DNA from: Calothrix anomala FACHB-343
Lineage (GTDB): Bacteria; Cyanobacteriota; Cyanobacteriia; Cyanobacteriales; Nostocaceae
Reading direction: 5' to 3'
NCBI RefSeq assembly: GCF_014696435.1
Contig: NZ_JACJQG010000011.1
Location: 62,001-126,000 of the forward strand
Length of the DNA stretch: 64,000 nt
Shown: one piece after another, positions 55,119-63,844 of the stretch
How positions within the stretch are numbered: the stretch's first letter is position 1
Layout: each line of letters begins with the position of its first letter
The notes under the pieces: model-generated
What the model was told of the DNA's origin: nothing
Databases searched by the model: none
What the model saw: only the letters and a program-made list of their open reading frames with translations
Made by a program: the position numbers and the translations under genes

Positions 55119-56087
55119 ATGACCTATTTAGAAACAGCAGCAGAATTTTATCGTGAAGTTGCACAAACACCACAAGTCGGACTTTGTTGTGTCCAAAGTA
55201 CACCTCTGCAACTACCAGGATTGAAAGTACCTTTGGCGATGCAAGAAATGAACTATGGTTGTGGTACCACTGTTCACCCAACTGAACTAGCTAATCAACC
55301 TACCGTTTTGTATGTTGGTGTGGGTGGTGGCTTAGAAGCCTTACAATTTGCTTATTTTTCCCGTCGTCCCGGTGCTGTAATTGCCGTGGAACCAGTAGAA
55401 GCCATGCGAGAAGCCGCTACACGCAATTTAGAAATTGCTGCTCAAGAAAATCCTTGGTTTGATCCCAGTTTTGTCCAAATTTACGCAGGAGACGCCTTTA
55501 ACTTACCAGTTGCTGATGCGGCTGTAGATGTCGTAGCGCAAAACTGTCTTTTCAACATCTTTGAACCAGAAGATTTAACCCGCGCTTTAAAAGAAGCATA
55601 TCGCGTTTTAAAACCAGGCGGACGTTTACAGATGAGCGATCCCATCGCTACTCGTTCCATACCAGCACATCTACAACAAGATGAACGCCTCAGAGCCATG
55701 TGCTTATCAGGCGCACTAACATATCAAGATTATACACAATTGATTGTTAATGCTGGCTTTGGTCAAGTAGAAATTCGTGCCCGTCGTCCTTACCGATTAC
55801 TAGATACTTTAACTTATAACCTAGAAGAAAATTTACTCCTAGAAAGTCTAGATTCTGTATCTTTTAAAGTTTCTATACCTGAAGATGGAGCCTGTATTTT
55901 TACAGGTAAAACCGCAATTTATGCAGGTACAGAATCTTTATTTGATGACGGAGCAGGACATTTATTGCAGCGTGGTATTCCCGCAGCCGTGTGCGATAAA
56001 ACTGCTGCTAAACTTGCAGCTTTAAAGCCAACAGAAATCATAGTTACCGATTCCACATGGCATTATGACGGTGGTGGTTGCTGCTAA
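55119..56087 (+). CDS. arsM: Arsenite methyltransferase ArsM (arsenosugar type)
   Basis: 322 residues. The SAM motif VLYVGVGGGLEALQFAY, acidic VIAVEP and the YRVLKPGGRLQMSD segment form the methyltransferase core. Cys residues in GLCCVQS, NYGCGTT, QNCLFN and RAMCLSGAL are candidates for As(III) thiolate binding. The C-terminus ends DGGGCC, the usual Cys-rich end of this subfamily. With the neighbouring radical SAM ArsS it makes dimethylarsenicals that become arsenosugars. It is the first gene of the arsM-arsS pair, separated from arsS by a MITE-like element. Confidence 0.93.
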   Translation: MTYLETAAEFYREVAQTPQVGLCCVQSTPLQLPGLKVPLAMQEMNYGCGTTVHPTELANQPTVLYVGVGGGLEALQFAYFSRRPGAVIAVEPVEAMREAATRNLEIAAQENPWFDPSFVQIYAGDAFNLPVADAAVDVVAQNCLFNIFEPEDLTRALKEAYRVLKPGGRLQMSDPIATRSIPAHLQQDERLRAMCLSGALTYQDYTQLIVNAGFGQVEIRARRPYRLLDTLTYNLEENLLLESLDSVSFKVSIPEDGACIFTGKTAIYAGTESLFDDGAGHLLQRGIPAAVCDKTAAKLAALKPTEIIVTDSTWHYDGGGCC

Positions 56088-56141
56088 TTTTTAACCACAA
56101 ATTACTATCTATATTAGTAGGGTTTTTTATGCCAACGGCTA

Positions 56142-56337
56142 ATATCAATTCTTTATGAAGCTGCATAGAATTTGATCCCCCCTAGCCCCCCTTAATAAGG
56201 GGAGAACCGGAATAAATCTATCAAAGTCCACGGCAGTTGCTTCAAGTCGGGAAACCCGCCCAACGCACTGCCTCCCCTTTTTTTAAGGGGGATTTAGGGG
56301 GATCTAAATATGTGCAACTTCACATAAAATTGATATA
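56142..56337. mobile_element. MITE-like element between arsM and arsS
   Basis: The ends ATATCAATT / AATTGATAT open inverted repeats of about 50-60 bp that run through ATGAAGCTGCAT-like and GATCCCCC blocks. The inner arms are CCCCCCTTA..AAGGGG and CCCCTTTT..AAGGGGGATT. It is 196 bp with no coding capacity, and sits inside what would otherwise be a short arsM-arsS spacer. Confidence 0.75.
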
Positions 56338-56428
56338 ACTCACCACCTGAATATTGTGGTGCGTTGCGCTACGCGACAACACACCCTACAAAGATTAAGA
56401 GTGAATCTTATTGGAGAAAAAATCAACA

Positions 56429-57436
56429 ATGCAAACTCAATCTTTAAATTCACAAGATATAAAAGTAACACCATTTAAACAGAAACTCAGTCAACCGTTA
56501 ACTAAAACCGCTATATCTGTATTACAAATTAATTTAGGTAAACGCTGTAACTTAGCCTGCACACACTGTCATGTAGAAGCTAGTCCAAAACGCACAGAAG
56601 AATTATCTCCAGAGATTTGCGCACAGTTAATTGAGTTAATTGACAAGTTTCCCCAAATTCAAACTGTCGATTTAACTGGTGGTGCGCCAGAAATGAATTA
56701 TGGCTTTAAGCCATTAGTAGCCGCCGCAAAAAAAACAGGTAAACAGGTAATTGTTCGTTCTAATTTAACTATTTATTTTGCTGATGGGTTTGGCGATTTA
56801 CCCGAATACTTTGCAGAAAACAAATTAAGAATAGTCGCTTCCCTACCCTGTTACCTAGCAGATAATGTAGATAAAATGCGCGGTGCTGGTGTTTTTGATG
56901 ATTCTATAAAAGCTTTGCAATGGCTAAATCGTCTTGGCTATGGAAAAGAATCAGATTTAATTTTGGATTTAGTTTATAATCCCCAATTACCCAAAGCAGA
57001 AAAATTTTCTTTAGCTCCTGAACAAACAAACCTAGAGAAAGCTTATAAAATGTTCTTACAAGAACATTTCGATATAGTATTTAACAACCTCTTCACCATC
57101 ACTAATCTACCAGTCGGTAGAACAAAAATGTATTTAGAAAGGCAGAAATTGTCCGCCAGCTATTTGCAGTTTTTAGAATCTAATTTTAATGCTGGTACAG
57201 TTGAGCATTTAATGTGTCGCAATCAATTATCAATTGACTATTTAGGTAACGTCTATGATTGCGACTTTAACCAAATGATGAATTTACCAGCAAAAAGCCA
57301 TAATGGTGAAACTTTGACAATTGCTAGCTTGTTAGCGGCTGGTAGTTTAGACTTGATTGATGAGATTCAAACCGCAGCTTATTGCTATGGTTGTACAGCT
57401 GGTTGTGGTTCTAGTTGCGGTGGTGCTTTAGTCTAA
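56429..57436 (+). CDS. arsS: Arsenosugar biosynthesis radical SAM protein ArsS
   Basis: 335 residues from the ATG at 56429, preceded by GGAG; a TTG six codons earlier is in frame. The radical SAM cluster motif is RCNLACTHCHVEASP (CxxxCxxC). DLTGGAPEMN is the SAM-binding GGxP equivalent. The C-terminal DUF3641 region ends with CYGCTAGCGSSCGGALV, a Cys-rich SPASM-like terminus. ArsS is proposed to transfer the SAM 5'-deoxyadenosyl group to dimethylarsinite, starting arsenosugar synthesis. It forms a pair with arsM, 340 bp upstream. Confidence 0.94.
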   Translation: MQTQSLNSQDIKVTPFKQKLSQPLTKTAISVLQINLGKRCNLACTHCHVEASPKRTEELSPEICAQLIELIDKFPQIQTVDLTGGAPEMNYGFKPLVAAAKKTGKQVIVRSNLTIYFADGFGDLPEYFAENKLRIVASLPCYLADNVDKMRGAGVFDDSIKALQWLNRLGYGKESDLILDLVYNPQLPKAEKFSLAPEQTNLEKAYKMFLQEHFDIVFNNLFTITNLPVGRTKMYLERQKLSASYLQFLESNFNAGTVEHLMCRNQLSIDYLGNVYDCDFNQMMNLPAKSHNGETLTIASLLAAGSLDLIDEIQTAAYCYGCTAGCGSSCGGALV

Positions 57437-58063: not shown

Positions 58064-58438
58064 ATGATGATGATGATGATGAACGAATCCATGACAACTG
58101 AAATGCAAACCTGCATGGACGCTTGCATGGAATGTCACAAGATGTGTATGGAAACCATGACTCACTGCATGTCTATGTCTCAAGGCAAGCAGATGGACAT
58201 GAAAATGATGAGCATGATGAGCATGATGCGCGACTGCGCGGAAATGTGCATGATGTGCATGAACATGATGATGAGTGGTTCCGAATTCATGGGACGTACT
58301 TGTATGCTGTGTGCAGAAATGTGCGATCGCTGTGCAATGGCTTGTGACGAAATGGGCGGTGATAAAATGATGGAATGTGCCGCAGCTTGCCGCAAATGTG
58401 CAGAAACTTGCCGGATGATGCAAATGATGCCTGCTTAA
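58064..58438 (+). CDS. Csp-type four-helix-bundle copper-binding protein (DUF326)
   Basis: 124 residues with 17 Cys and about 41 Met. Cys fall in CxxxC and CxxC spacings along predicted helices (TCMDACMECHKMC, DCAEMCMMC, RTCMLCAEMCDRCAMAC, ECAAACRKCAETC), as in copper-storage proteins that line a bundle core with thiolates. AGGAGG at 58051-58056 lies 7 nt before the first ATG. The gene opens with six consecutive ATG codons; family members normally begin near MTTEMQTC, so the Met run is an extension. There is no signal peptide, so it is cytosolic. Its likely role is to buffer Cu(I). Confidence 0.93.
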   Translation: MMMMMMNESMTTEMQTCMDACMECHKMCMETMTHCMSMSQGKQMDMKMMSMMSMMRDCAEMCMMCMNMMMSGSEFMGRTCMLCAEMCDRCAMACDEMGGDKMMECAAACRKCAETCRMMQMMPA

Positions 58439-58478: not shown

Positions 58479-58511
58479 AAGCGCTCAGGCTCAACAAGTC
58501 TGGGCGCTTGA
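58479..58511 (+). terminator. Imperfect hairpin after the copper protein gene
   Basis: AAGCGCTCAG and CTGGGCGCTT can pair with one mismatch around AGGCTCAACAAGT. It lies between the copper protein and the CBS gene and has no T-run. Confidence 0.4.
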
Positions 58512-58525
58512 AGTATATTTATAGG

Positions 58526-59326
58526 ATGAAGCACCTTAAATCCCGTTCTCAAGATTTGCGGAGTTTATTTGAGAACAACATCACCATTGAATACGTAGCA
58601 GAACCCCTCAAAGCAGTGTCGGCGGAAGCTGAGGTAACAGAGGTGCTGCAATGGATGCAAGCACGCGACTTTGATGTCGTTGGTGTTGAGTCAGGTGATA
58701 CCATCACCGGCTATGTAGAACGCGCCAACTTACACAAAGCAACATCGGGAAAAGTATGCAGCGATTATCAGCGCGTATTTCATCCCAGAGAACTCATCGC
58801 TATTTCTACCCCACTGATGAAACTGCTACCAATTCTGCAACAAACTCCCCGATTATTTGTGCTGGATTGCAATCAAGTCACGGGAATTGTTACCTGTGGC
58901 GATTTGCAAAAAGCACCTGCAAGAATGCTGTTATTTGGCTTAGTCACGCTGTTAGAAATGAATTTGCTGCGACTCGTGCGGCTTTATTATGTAGATAATA
59001 GTTGGCAGAAAGTTTTAAAACCAGAACGTTTACAAGTCGCACAAAGATTATGGCGCGAAAGCCAAGAAAGAAATGAAGCCACAGATTTATTAGATTATCT
59101 ACAATTTTGCGATAAGCGCGAGTTAGTTTTAAATCAACCAGAACTGCTAGAACAACTAGGATTAAAATCCAAGCGATTTGGCGAAAGGTTTCTTAAATCA
59201 GCCGAACAGCTACGCAACCGATTAGCACATGCACAAAATTTAGTTAGCGGCTCCTCTTGGACAGATTTAATTTCTTTAGCGGAAGCGATGGAAAAATTAT
59301 TGATTCTGTGTGAGGAAATTGAGTGA
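58526..59326 (+). CDS. CBS-domain protein with C-terminal HEPN-like domain
   Basis: 266 residues from the ATG at 58526 with AGG just upstream. The N-terminal 125 residues form a CBS pair (ITIEYVAEPLKAVSAEAEV, DFDVVGVESGDTITGYV, RLFVLDCNQVTGIVTCGDL), likely an adenine-nucleotide sensor. The all-helical C-terminus ends with RFLKSAEQLRNRLAHAQNLV; Arg230 or Arg232 and His235 fit the R-x(4-6)-H signature of HEPN ribonucleases. No nucleotidyltransferase antitoxin (MNT) is adjacent. It may be an energy-sensing RNase or a non-catalytic HEPN. It is co-oriented with the copper gene. Confidence 0.82.
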   Translation: MKHLKSRSQDLRSLFENNITIEYVAEPLKAVSAEAEVTEVLQWMQARDFDVVGVESGDTITGYVERANLHKATSGKVCSDYQRVFHPRELIAISTPLMKLLPILQQTPRLFVLDCNQVTGIVTCGDLQKAPARMLLFGLVTLLEMNLLRLVRLYYVDNSWQKVLKPERLQVAQRLWRESQERNEATDLLDYLQFCDKRELVLNQPELLEQLGLKSKRFGERFLKSAEQLRNRLAHAQNLVSGSSWTDLISLAEAMEKLLILCEEIE

Positions 59327-61035: not shown

Positions 61036-61094
61036 TGCTTTATTTATGTTTAACTACTTATTAATACAACTTGAGACTTTATAAATTACAAATT

Positions 61095-61838
61095 ATGTTG
61101 ACTTTCCCTGTTTATATCGGGATAGGTTCCTTACGAATTCATCCGCATATTTTATTTGAATCTTTAGCTTATGCTACTGCTTTTCGTTTATTAATAAAGC
61201 GTGTCCGTAAAGATTCAATTACACCTAGTCAACGTACTTCTGTAATTGTTGGGGGGATGATAGGTGCTTTAATTGGTGCCAAAATGTTGGTGTGGCTGCA
61301 ACATATTGATTTAATTTGGCAAAATCAACAGCAATTACTTTTACTCTTATTGCAAGGTAAAACAGTAGTCGGCGCACTTTTGGGGGGATTAATTGGTGTA
61401 GAAATTACCAAAAAAATTCTGGGAATTCATCAGTCTACAGGCGATGTATTTGTATTTCCCTTAACTGTGGGTACAGCCATCGGGAGAATTGGCTGCTTTC
61501 TCACCGGTTTGAGCGATCGCACTTATGGAATCGCCACCACATTACCTTGGGGTGTAGATTTTGGCGATGGTGTTCCCCGACATCCCACACAATTGTATGA
61601 AATCTTATTTTTATTATTGTTAATTATATTCTTAAGCTGGCGCAGCCGTTTTCAATATGAAAATGGCGAATTATTTAAATTTTATTTAATTTCTTATTTT
61701 GCGTTCCGTTTCCTGATAGATTTCATTAAACCAGATTTTCACCCATTTTTGGGCTTGAGTGCGATTCAAATTGCTTGCTTACTCACTATTCTGTATTACC
61801 GTCGCAGTATTCCTCAGATGGTTCAACTCAAAAACTAA
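61095..61838 (+). CDS. Lgt-like prolipoprotein diacylglyceryl transferase-family protein, divergent
   Basis: 247 residues from the ATG at 61095. About seven membrane helices. It resembles Lgt in overall layout and keeps GRIG (as in the Lgt signature) and RHPTQLYE. However, the Lgt signature GRxGNFxNGExxG reads GRIGCFLTGLSDRTYG, so the Asn and Glu of the NGE part are missing. It is therefore probably a paralogue acting on a different acceptor or using the diacylglyceryl-binding fold for another reaction. It is followed on the same strand by a Tes-like radical SAM enzyme and a small membrane protein, suggesting a shared lipid-related pathway. Confidence 0.85.
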   Translation: MLTFPVYIGIGSLRIHPHILFESLAYATAFRLLIKRVRKDSITPSQRTSVIVGGMIGALIGAKMLVWLQHIDLIWQNQQQLLLLLLQGKTVVGALLGGLIGVEITKKILGIHQSTGDVFVFPLTVGTAIGRIGCFLTGLSDRTYGIATTLPWGVDFGDGVPRHPTQLYEILFLLLLIIFLSWRSRFQYENGELFKFYLISYFAFRFLIDFIKPDFHPFLGLSAIQIACLLTILYYRRSIPQMVQLKN

Positions 61839-61874
61839 TTTTAAATTGCATTTACAGCAGTTTTCACCTATTTA

Positions 61875-61968
61875 AACCACATCTGTCGTAGGGGCACGGC
61901 ATCGACAATCTTTTGGCACATAAAATAATTTTACTGGTGCCGTGCCCCTACAGTGTGGTCTATTTACA
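61875..61968. repeat. MITE-like repeat, copy 2
   Basis: 94 bp, the same length as copy 1 at 59395-59488 and with few differences. Outer arms extend to about 61853-61981 (CAGCAGTTTTCACC / GGAAGATGCTGT). Confidence 0.85.
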
Positions 61969-62010
61969 GGAAGATGCTGTAACTGACATATTGCAACATT
62001 TTTAATCAGC

Positions 62011-62035
62011 GTAAGGTGGGCATTGCCCACCTTAC
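62011..62035. repeat. GTAAGGTGGGCA palindrome
   Basis: GTAAGGTGGGCA-T-TGCCCACCTTAC, a perfect 12-bp inverted repeat with a 1-bp centre, 34 bp upstream of the radical SAM start. It is a known style of cyanobacterial intergenic palindrome. Confidence 0.8.
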
Positions 62036-62068
62036 AAAAACTGCCCTCTGCGTTATTAAAAAATTACC

Positions 62069-63487
62069 ATGCCTACCCGCGATTATTTATTTTACGCCTT
62101 AACTAATAGTGTTTGCTCAAAATGCTTAGTTAAGGTAGAAGCAAAAATCATTTTTCAAGACGATTGTGTTTATTTAGTTAAACATTGTCCTACCCACGGA
62201 AAAGAAGAAGTTTTAATTGCTGATGATATTGAATATTATAAAAAATCTCTAGAATTTATTAAGCCTGGGGATATGCCCCTCAAATTTAATACGCCAATTA
62301 AATATGGTTGTCCTTATGATTGTGGACTTTGCCCCGATCACGAACAGCATAGTTGTTTAACATTAATTGAAGTCACCGATAAATGCAATCTTTCCTGCCC
62401 AATTTGTTATGCTGATTCGGGAGCAGAAGAAGTTTCTCAATTATCCCAGCAACCAAGACTGCATCGCAGTTTAGCACAAATTGAAAGTATGATTGATGCG
62501 GTAGTCGCTAATGAAGGCGAACCGCAAATAGTACAACTCAGTGGTGGCGAACCTACTACTCATCCTGAGTTTTTTCAAATCTTGGATATTGTCAAAACCA
62601 AGCCGATTAAGCATTTAATGATAAATACCAATGGCGTAACGATCGCTAAGGATAAATCTTTTTGCGATCGCTTGAGTCAATACATGCCCGGAATTGAGAT
62701 ATATTTACAATTTGATAGCTTTGAAGCCGCAGCTTTAAAAGAGTTACGCGGTGCAGATTTACGCCATATACGCGAGCAAGCAATTGCTAATCTCAATGAA
62801 TATAATATTTCGACTACATTAGTTGTCACCCTCAAGAAAGGTTTAAATGATAGCGAAATTGGTAAAATCATCGAATATGCTTTACAGCAAAAATGTATCC
62901 GGGGTGTGACTTTTCAACCGATACAAGCAGCCGGAAGATTAGCAGGATTTAACCCCAAGCGAGACAGGTACACATTAACAGAAGTTCGTCGCTCAATTTT
63001 AGAACAAAGTCCTTATTTTAAACCGGAAGATATTCTTCCAGTTCCCTGTCATCCTGATTGCTTGGCGATGGCTTACGCATTGAAATTAAATGGTAAAGTT
63101 ATCCCGCTAACTGGGTTAATTAATCCAGATGTGTTTGTAAAAATTATGCCTAATAGTGTACTTTATGAACAAAATGAAGAACTAAAACAGCAAATTTTTC
63201 AACTATTTTCTACCAGCCATTCACCCAATTCTGCGGCTTTATCACTCAAGCAGCTTTTATGTTGTTTACCGATGATAGCCGTACCTGAAGGTATTAATTA
63301 CTCAAATGTATTTCGAGTAATGATAGTTCAATTTCTCGACCCTTTTAACTTTGATGTTCGCTCAGTCAAGCGCTCTTGTATTCATATTGTACATCCAGAT
63401 GGTAGGATAATTCCATTTGATACATTCAATATGTTTTATCGTGCAGGAAGTGCTGGATATCAGTTGGTTAATAACCGTACTGATTGA
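62069..63487 (+). CDS. Tes/MJ0619-like multi-cluster radical SAM enzyme
   Basis: 472 residues. N-terminal rubredoxin-like metal site with C16xxC19 and C33/C40 (VCSKC, DDC, KHCPTH). A second Cys group CPYDCGLCPDH (C81, C85, C88) plus C96. The canonical radical SAM motif KCNLSCPIC has C106, C110 and C113, and QLSGGEPTTHPEF binds SAM. More Cys occur in PCHPDC and LLCCLP near the C-terminus. This layout, a rubredoxin site plus several Fe-S clusters, is that of Tes (tetraether synthase, MJ0619 type), which couples lipid alkyl chains in archaea. The flanking genes encode an Lgt-like protein and a small membrane protein. The cyanobacterial substrate is unknown. Confidence 0.85.
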   Translation: MPTRDYLFYALTNSVCSKCLVKVEAKIIFQDDCVYLVKHCPTHGKEEVLIADDIEYYKKSLEFIKPGDMPLKFNTPIKYGCPYDCGLCPDHEQHSCLTLIEVTDKCNLSCPICYADSGAEEVSQLSQQPRLHRSLAQIESMIDAVVANEGEPQIVQLSGGEPTTHPEFFQILDIVKTKPIKHLMINTNGVTIAKDKSFCDRLSQYMPGIEIYLQFDSFEAAALKELRGADLRHIREQAIANLNEYNISTTLVVTLKKGLNDSEIGKIIEYALQQKCIRGVTFQPIQAAGRLAGFNPKRDRYTLTEVRRSILEQSPYFKPEDILPVPCHPDCLAMAYALKLNGKVIPLTGLINPDVFVKIMPNSVLYEQNEELKQQIFQLFSTSHSPNSAALSLKQLLCCLPMIAVPEGINYSNVFRVMIVQFLDPFNFDVRSVKRSCIHIVHPDGRIIPFDTFNMFYRAGSAGYQLVNNRTD

Positions 63488-63523
63488 ATTTAATTGATCG
63501 GTGTCATCTATAGGGTTAAATTA

Positions 63524-63844
63524 ATGTCTCAAAGAAATGAAATTTTCCAAATTTTATTAGGATTATTTCTGATAGTTGGCTTACATTCATTAGCAATACT
63601 GATCATATTTGGCTTGGGTTGGCTTTCTGTGCAGATATTTGGTTCTAATAATTATTACTATTTAGGTATATGGTTAGTAGGCGCTTGGGGATTTTTTATC
63701 TGGCAAATGTTATATGTAATTCCCGTTTGTATTTGGCTGAGAAGACAACAGCGCGTAGCAATGATGAAAGGCGTAATTATTGGTGCAGTAATTACTGCTT
63801 TATTAAATGGTAGTTGTTTTTTATTAATATTTACTAATCGTTAA
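63524..63844 (+). CDS. Small three-helix membrane protein after the radical SAM gene
   Basis: 106 residues from the ATG at 63524; a TTG ten codons upstream is in frame. Three hydrophobic segments (about 9-33, 42-66, 78-101) with a short basic loop WLRRQQRVAMMKG between helices 2 and 3. No known family is recognised. It begins 36 bp after the radical SAM stop on the same strand, so the two genes are almost certainly co-transcribed. It could anchor the radical SAM enzyme to the membrane; that is inference. Confidence 0.78.
   Translation: MSQRNEIFQILLGLFLIVGLHSLAILIIFGLGWLSVQIFGSNNYYYLGIWLVGAWGFFIWQMLYVIPVCIWLRRQQRVAMMKGVIIGAVITALLNGSCFLLIFTNR

Follow-up and report, generated by a model that had tools for sequence, protein, structure and literature searches.

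Three co-oriented open reading frames (ORFs) at positions 61095-63844 (+) of a 64,000 nt stretch of the Calothrix anomala FACHB-343 genome, the window of this study, form a block that joins a Cys-bearing paralogue of the Lgt family to a radical S-adenosylmethionine (SAM) protein of the type of the archaeal tetraether synthase Tes and to a small membrane protein, here called the companion. The same combination recurs as a patchy but wide, trans-phylum cassette. We interpret it as a self-contained protein-lipidation cassette, in which the Lgt paralogue would lipidate a Cys residue of the companion and the Tes paralogue would modify the tails of the attached lipid; as a rough estimate, the probability of this interpretation is somewhat below 40%. 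A preliminary description of this stretch had distinguished an Lgt homologue with an altered GRIGCFLTGL signature, a radical SAM protein with the multi-cluster Cys layout of Tes and a three-helix membrane protein, and had suggested a search for co-occurrence of the two enzyme genes as well as structure prediction for both. The ORF coordinates, the checked motif and the Cys spacings bear out this gene assignment; the two enzyme genes were found linked in several phyla, and the models confirmed both folds. The attribution to a "cyanobacterial pathway" was too narrow, given that the cassette is also found in Bacillota, Bacteroidota, Acidobacteriota and other groups.

The first gene, ORF1 (61095..61838, +), encodes 247 aa from an ATG, or 255 aa from an alternative TTG start at 61071. 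Its product scores 113.4 bits against the Pfam family PF01790 (LGT), above the gathering cut-off of 24.9, and 59.7 bits against the NCBIfam lgt equivalog TIGR00544, under the cut-off of 118.9; the Lgt fold was confirmed by a structure model. The signature GRIGCFLTGL (61482..61511, +) corresponds to GRLGNFINGE of E. coli Lgt, with R131 kept as the equivalent of R143, and with C134 and L139 in place of N146 and E151, respectively. The ORF1 family has neither the canonical signature GRxGNFxNxE nor the HGGL histidine. In an alignment of 72 family members, Cys occupies the N146 position in every sequence, and R143, Y235 and R239 of the phosphatidylglycerol site are each kept in all 72, as is E202. 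None of the 72 has a His at the H103 position, where V, M, I or L is found instead. Y26 is replaced by H in 70 members, Y30 by E and M100 by K in 69 each, and R246 by K. At the E151 position, 41 of 43 compared members have L, I, V or T, mostly L; the 26 "canonical" Lgt rows of that comparison were chosen by a GRxGN or GRxAN motif, so that their N146 holds by construction, and 14 rows with neither motif were left out. The view of ORF1 as a degenerate Lgt was rejected, given that the residues found at the exchanged positions hardly vary from phylum to phylum. The same genome contains, on another contig, a second Lgt-family gene (283 bits) with the canonical motif GRWGNFFNSE, and the window copy is therefore probably dispensable as a housekeeping enzyme. 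A second Lgt copy is common, with about 1,300 genomes having two, according to the available parts of PMC13251419 (2026); the same parts describe N146C and Y26H for further Lgt homologues, and one of these homologues appears, from the passage concerned, to partly restore an E. coli strain.

The second gene, ORF2 (62069..63487, +; 472 aa), matches PDB entry 7tol (Tes/GDGT-MAS, the archaeal tetraether synthase) at 5.5e-60 and the radical SAM family PF04055 with 74 bits. The model displays the Tes fold over its full length, from the rubredoxin-like domain at the N-terminus through the N-auxiliary and radical SAM parts to the C-auxiliary part, with residues 351-407 at a predicted local distance difference test score (pLDDT) below 50. 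Three sites are invariant in 42 family sequences, namely the rubredoxin-like site C16-x2-C19-x20-C40-x2-H43 (62114..62197, +), with the spacing of Tes C9/C12/C33/H36, the N-terminal auxiliary Fe-S site C81-x3-C85-x2-C88 (62309..62332, +), with the spacing of Tes C73/C77/C80, and the radical SAM motif C106-x3-C110-x2-C113 (62384..62407, +). A C-terminal span with C327, C398, C399 and C437 (63047..63379, +), each present in 42 of 42 sequences, is proposed to hold an altered C-terminal cluster. The position of Tes Y459 is Ile (I440) throughout the 42 members, and that of C470 is Asp or Glu (D451 in the window protein; D in 31, E in 11); the Met439 position has M in 29, V in 10, including the window protein, I in two and L in one. 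The portion of the Tes literature available to us describes Y459 as strictly conserved in archaeal Tes and the M439A enzyme as still active. With the Tes model NF045702, ORF2 scores 274.6 bits and misses the cut-off of 450, which is exceeded in none of 53 genomes. The highest-scoring curated model is TrsS (NF045646), at 308.1 bits and a cut-off of 490; eight of eight other family members (291 to 338 bits) are likewise under it. A plain Tes identity of ORF2 was not accepted, on account of the missed Tes cut-off and the changes at Y459 and C470, nor was a plain identity with the bacterial membrane-spanning lipid synthase Mss.

A species-level genome collection was scanned with the aligned cyanobacterial radical SAM proteins, and the best 80 of at least 557 relatives were analyzed, a choice by which linkage in more distant relatives is hardly sampled. 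By their titles, these 80 loci come from Cyanobacteria, Paenibacillus and other Bacillota, Bacteroidota, Acidobacteriota, Planctomycetota, Omnitrophota, Spirochaetia and a few others. They were fetched by the radical SAM protein alone, and 74 of them have an Lgt-like gene on the same strand, between 3.5 kilobases (kb) upstream and 6 kb downstream; it is located directly upstream in 66 of the linked loci and elsewhere in eight. Among the six unlinked loci, two are cut by contig ends, one (L031) has the Lgt-like gene 3.9 kb upstream, and three (L032, L079, L091) have none within reach of the radical SAM gene; the genome of L079 encodes an Lgt-like protein with the similar motif GRLGCHFEGL on another contig. 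For 70 loci, the tree distances of the Lgt-like and radical SAM proteins are correlated (r=0.83, against at most 0.12 in 1000 label permutations), a value to which common species descent contributes. In a later set of genomes, some of which may repeat a genome of the scan because only 43 of the 80 loci were tied to genomes, the Lgt-like gene was present in 21 of 23. Within Cyanobacteria, a radical SAM relative was found at 1e-20 in 11 of 386 genomes; one of these (G050) was set aside, since its matches are only 31-32% identical and belong elsewhere, and a close relative is present in 10 of the 386, the window's own genome included. Matches above 500 bits in even phylum samples, each count including the genome used as centre, amounted to 14/198 in the phylum of Chitinophaga, 2/199 in that of Paenibacillus and 10/149 in the acidobacterial phylum.

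The third gene, ORF3 (63524..63844, +; 106 aa, or 116 aa from an alternative TTG start at 63494), encodes a very hydrophobic protein with about three helices by eye and without a match to any Pfam family at E<=1. Its Cys98 (63815..63817, +), 8 residues from the C-terminus, is part of NGSCFLLIFTNR and occupies the same place in relatives. Proteins that cluster with it by sequence were found in 29 loci, and the gene in its place in other phyla has no similarity caught by clustering. What is common to the companions across phyla is a Cys close to where a transmembrane helix ends, as a rule the last helix of the protein, 4-17 residues before the stop codon; no other residue is conserved by eye. 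Such a C-terminal Cys-bearing transmembrane ORF follows the radical SAM gene in 51 of 75 loci; in control windows of the same loci, it occurs in 1 of 377 placed after other long ORFs and in 8 of 2196 tiled ones. The rule was written after inspection of these loci, and the 480-base window misses longer companions. The 75 are drawn from the 80 scan loci, without one that lacks 420 downstream bases and four (L055, L065, L067, L068) in which the radical SAM frame was lost in ORF picking and which were left out of the neighbor clustering and all companion counts as well. A wider rule, which admits N-terminal helices and other positions and applies a charge filter, finds a companion in 75 of 87 loci. 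These 87 comprise 76 scan loci and 11 from the initial cyanobacterial set, in which one genome is represented by two pieces. In the 23 later genomes, a companion was found in 12 in the strict downstream C-terminal form and in 17 by a looser rule, which accepts any position in about 1.5 kb of flank as well as N-terminal helices and has no control of its own.

The orientation of the companion can be predicted from its charges. When the charge filter is dropped, 65 of the 87 loci have a Cys-bearing transmembrane ORF in the 700 bp that follow the radical SAM gene, and Lys plus Arg residues are more numerous before the helix than in the tail in 61 of these, equal in four and fewer in none. Because of this excess on the N-terminal side and the positive-inside rule, the companion Cys is predicted to be exoplasmic, on the side where Lgt works. 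At least eight loci (L018, L034, L054, L075, L077, L089, L094, L101) have two or three companions in tandem, alike by eye, as would be expected of a substrate; the list of multi-copy loci under the wider rule also includes ORFs judged spurious (L020, L052, L073, L080, L084). The placement varies: four Paenibacillus loci (L059, L060, L063, L066) have a Cys-bearing transmembrane protein upstream of the Lgt-like gene, and the best candidates of four acidobacterial loci (L075, L076, L077, L098) carry the Cys at the outer end of an N-terminal helix. The L059 protein has a Cys/His-rich N-terminal half that resembles a small zinc domain. Eight companions were compared with Pfam, and seven had no match and one (L054) a single weak match under the cut-off. 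In the window genome, the companion query matches only itself, which is a weak test for further substrates, as companions share almost no sequence.

A second branch has a different arrangement. Radical SAM proteins of about 39% identity (L184, L185, L188) are followed by a GCC-type Lgt-like gene downstream, and in two of these three cases (L219, L220) a small protein, with a Cys that by eye terminates its final hydrophobic stretch, comes directly after the Lgt-like gene. The two enzyme genes of L220 are separated by ICMT-like and DUF4395 genes. That the companion moves to the Lgt-like gene in this branch is among the reasons for favoring it as the acceptor of the Lgt-like protein. At 32-34% identity (L223-L225), no Lgt-like ORF was present within 12-13 kb; L222, in which the radical SAM frame was lost in ORF picking, is not counted here. 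In L221, the gene next after the Lgt-like one is, by eye, a permease-like ORF, and the 34% identical proteins of L223 and L224 are encoded beside ORFs resembling, by eye, a SAM methyltransferase and a flavoprotein disulfide reductase. Further GCC-type Lgt paralogues (GRxGCxxxGCC) were seen in L226, L227, L232, L234, L235 and L237, with genomes G416 and G418 contributing two each among the fetched stretches.

Taken together, the kept residues expected to bind phosphatidylglycerol, a radical SAM fold expected to work on lipid chains and the rapidly diverging, sometimes duplicated companion with its single constant Cys suggest lipidation of an exoplasmic Cys with a modified lipid. In this scheme, the Lgt paralogue would bind phosphatidylglycerol via the old Lgt core and move its diacylglyceryl part to a new acceptor, the Cys at the exoplasmic helix end of the companion, which is not preceded by a lipobox. 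The Tes-type enzyme would, on the cytoplasmic side, take acyl chains into a Tes-like pocket, and its radical SAM chemistry, with the altered C-terminal Fe-S cluster, would act on the chain ends, modifying or coupling them, either ahead of the transfer or once it is complete. This would yield a small membrane protein bearing a tail-modified lipid; a lipid that spans or crosses the membrane would have to bridge the cytoplasmic enzyme and the outer Cys. The three genes, their linkage, folds and conserved residues and the companion Cys with its predicted topology were observed, and we infer the acceptor role of the companion, the diacylglyceryl nature of the moved group and the action of the radical step. 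The preliminary description had left the choice between lipid modification and a lipid-anchored protein; the conserved companion Cys, which it had not mentioned, strengthens the anchored protein, and a straightforward filing of ORF2 under Tes did not hold. A bolder version, which we regard as improbable, has the Lgt paralogue place a diacylglyceryl group on the helix Cys without a lipobox and the Tes paralogue join the chain ends with one another or with a lipid in the other leaflet, resulting in a membrane-spanning or macrocyclic anchor.

Several observations weigh against lipidation of the companion by this route. The weakest step is the topology, as the radical SAM protein should be cytoplasmic and the Cys outside, and the active sites of the two enzymes are expected on opposite faces of the membrane. 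None of 90 candidate companions has a strict lipobox ([LVI][ASTVI][GAS]C). No companion was found by the wider rule in 12 of the 87 loci, some owing to contig ends or the strictness of the rule and others perhaps really lacking one, nor by the looser rule in six of the 23 later genomes. The companion mostly follows the radical SAM gene and may be the partner of that enzyme. Y459 and C470 of Tes are not kept in the ORF2 family. Finally, the available parts of PMC13251419 describe Y26, H103 and N146 of E. coli Lgt as absolutely required and presume low activity for a homologue with Y26H and N146C; the paralogue has H, V/M and C, respectively, at these three positions.

The strongest competitor, in our view doubtful although to be taken seriously, is that the Tes-type enzyme couples the acyl chains of free phospholipids, that the Lgt paralogue acts on the head group by moving or removing it and that the companion is a structural subunit or anchor. 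Three acidobacterial genomes, however, encode another Tes-family protein besides this one, with a higher score against the Tes model, and the one that was aligned (L110) keeps the residues at M439, Y459 and C470. Moreover, we know of no membrane-spanning lipids in cyanobacteria or most of the other hosts, and a mere subunit would not be expected to be so divergent or to occur in tandem copies.

Unlikely, in turn, is a radical SAM protein with a non-lipid substrate, such as the companion peptide or a metal centre, while the Lgt paralogue only anchors the product. The best curated match is indeed TrsS rather than Tes, and many radical SAM proteins with small-protein partners are peptide maturases. 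Against such a role stand the full-length Tes fold with its N-terminal rubredoxin-like domain and, by eye, the conservation of no companion residue across phyla except the Cys, which is predicted to be exoplasmic.

Slightly less likely still is a conversion of the Lgt fold into an acyltransferase, in which C134, presumably near H18, E22 and K89, would take an acyl group of phosphatidylglycerol as a thioester and pass it to the companion Cys or another acceptor. Lnt has a Glu-Lys-Cys triad, and the ORF1 family combines Cys at N146 (72 of 72) with H at Y26 (70) and with E at Y30 and K at M100 (69 each). In E. coli Lgt, according to the available part of PMC4728403, the contacts to the glycerol or ester part of the lipid come from R143, Y26 and the M100 main chain. 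On the other side, the related GCC-type paralogues share the Cys at the N146 position, yet nine of ten keep Y26, and the ORF1 family strictly retains R239 and Y235, on which diacylglyceryl transfer depends in the E. coli enzyme. That the Lgt-like gene is simply a low-activity second Lgt, linked by old operon inertia without a joint function, is very improbable, in spite of the roughly 1,300 genomes with two Lgt copies (PMC13251419, in part), given the linkage in several phyla, the shared replaced residues and the correlated trees.

No further cassette member was seen among the recurrent neighbors of the pair. Three kinds of neighbor recur on both strands and were regarded as widespread families, namely ABC transporters (13 loci), response regulators (13 loci) and a short-chain dehydrogenase group (7 loci). 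Two more, an ORF that by eye is peptidase-like and one of 131 aa, recur in five loci each, confined to a few Bacteroidota, and short membrane ORFs of Bacteroidota also recur, in the place of the companion. Scans for promoters and terminators yielded about the same numbers of sites as shuffled sequences. Upstream of the cassette, by 4-6 kb, the window encodes two arsenosugar proteins at 55119-57436 (+), namely ArsM, with 580 bits at a cut-off of 400, and ArsS, a radical SAM protein, with 421 bits at a cut-off of 300. Among the neighbor groups that recur near the cassette in five or more loci, none is of the arsM/arsS type, and the two genes are treated as chance neighbors. The region also includes a very Met/Cys-rich 124-aa ORF (58064-58438, +) that starts with MMMMMM, has no NCBIfam match at 1e-10 and perhaps encodes a metal-binding protein, and a gene at 58508-59326 (+) for a protein with a weak match of about 200 residues to NF053863, a CBS-domain anti-phage protein (29 bits, cut-off 260).

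Among the matches listed in the open-access literature, no description of a linked Lgt-like and Tes-like pair was found by title or abstract start. As far as the available parts of two papers go, a role of bacterial Tes homologues in membrane-spanning lipids is only hypothesized (PMC8941075), and the activity proposed for them is not confirmed (PMC11868695). The cassette gives a large group of these homologues two recurrent partners, a suspected substrate and a specific testable residue, and provides one group of Cys-bearing Lgt paralogues with a possible acceptor. If the proposed lipidation were true, common soil and water bacteria (Paenibacillus, Flavobacterium, Chitinophaga and cyanobacteria) would possess a protein lipid modification testable in culturable strains, and a membrane-spanning or macrocyclic anchor would be a new class of bacterial protein lipidation.

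The cassette resembles several known systems and differs from each of them. Compared with Lgt (E. coli 5AZB/5AZC), the paralogue has V/M/I/L for H103, C for N146, H for Y26, K for M100 and R246 and mostly L for E151; it also has linked partner genes and scores below the NCBIfam lgt cut-offs. With Tes/GDGT-MAS (M. jannaschii 7TOL/7TOM), the ORF2 family shares the whole fold and the rubredoxin, N-terminal auxiliary and radical SAM sites, whereas Y459 and C470 are exchanged in all 42 members and the invariant C-terminal cysteines are different ones; the Met439 position has Met in 29 of 42 members, though V in the window protein. ORF2 also aligns over nearly its full length to the model of the TrsS radical SAM (seleno)protein NF045646, but reaches 308.1 instead of the required 490 bits. 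Models of the bacterial Mss are reported to resemble Tes structurally; unlike the cassette enzyme, Mss is not mentioned with an Lgt partner in the available part of the source (PMC13274423). Finally, as in bacterial lipoproteins with a type II signal peptide, the companion Cys is predicted at the exoplasmic end of a hydrophobic helix, but that helix is mostly the last one, with the Cys 4-17 residues from the C-terminus, and the strict lipobox is absent from all 90 candidates.

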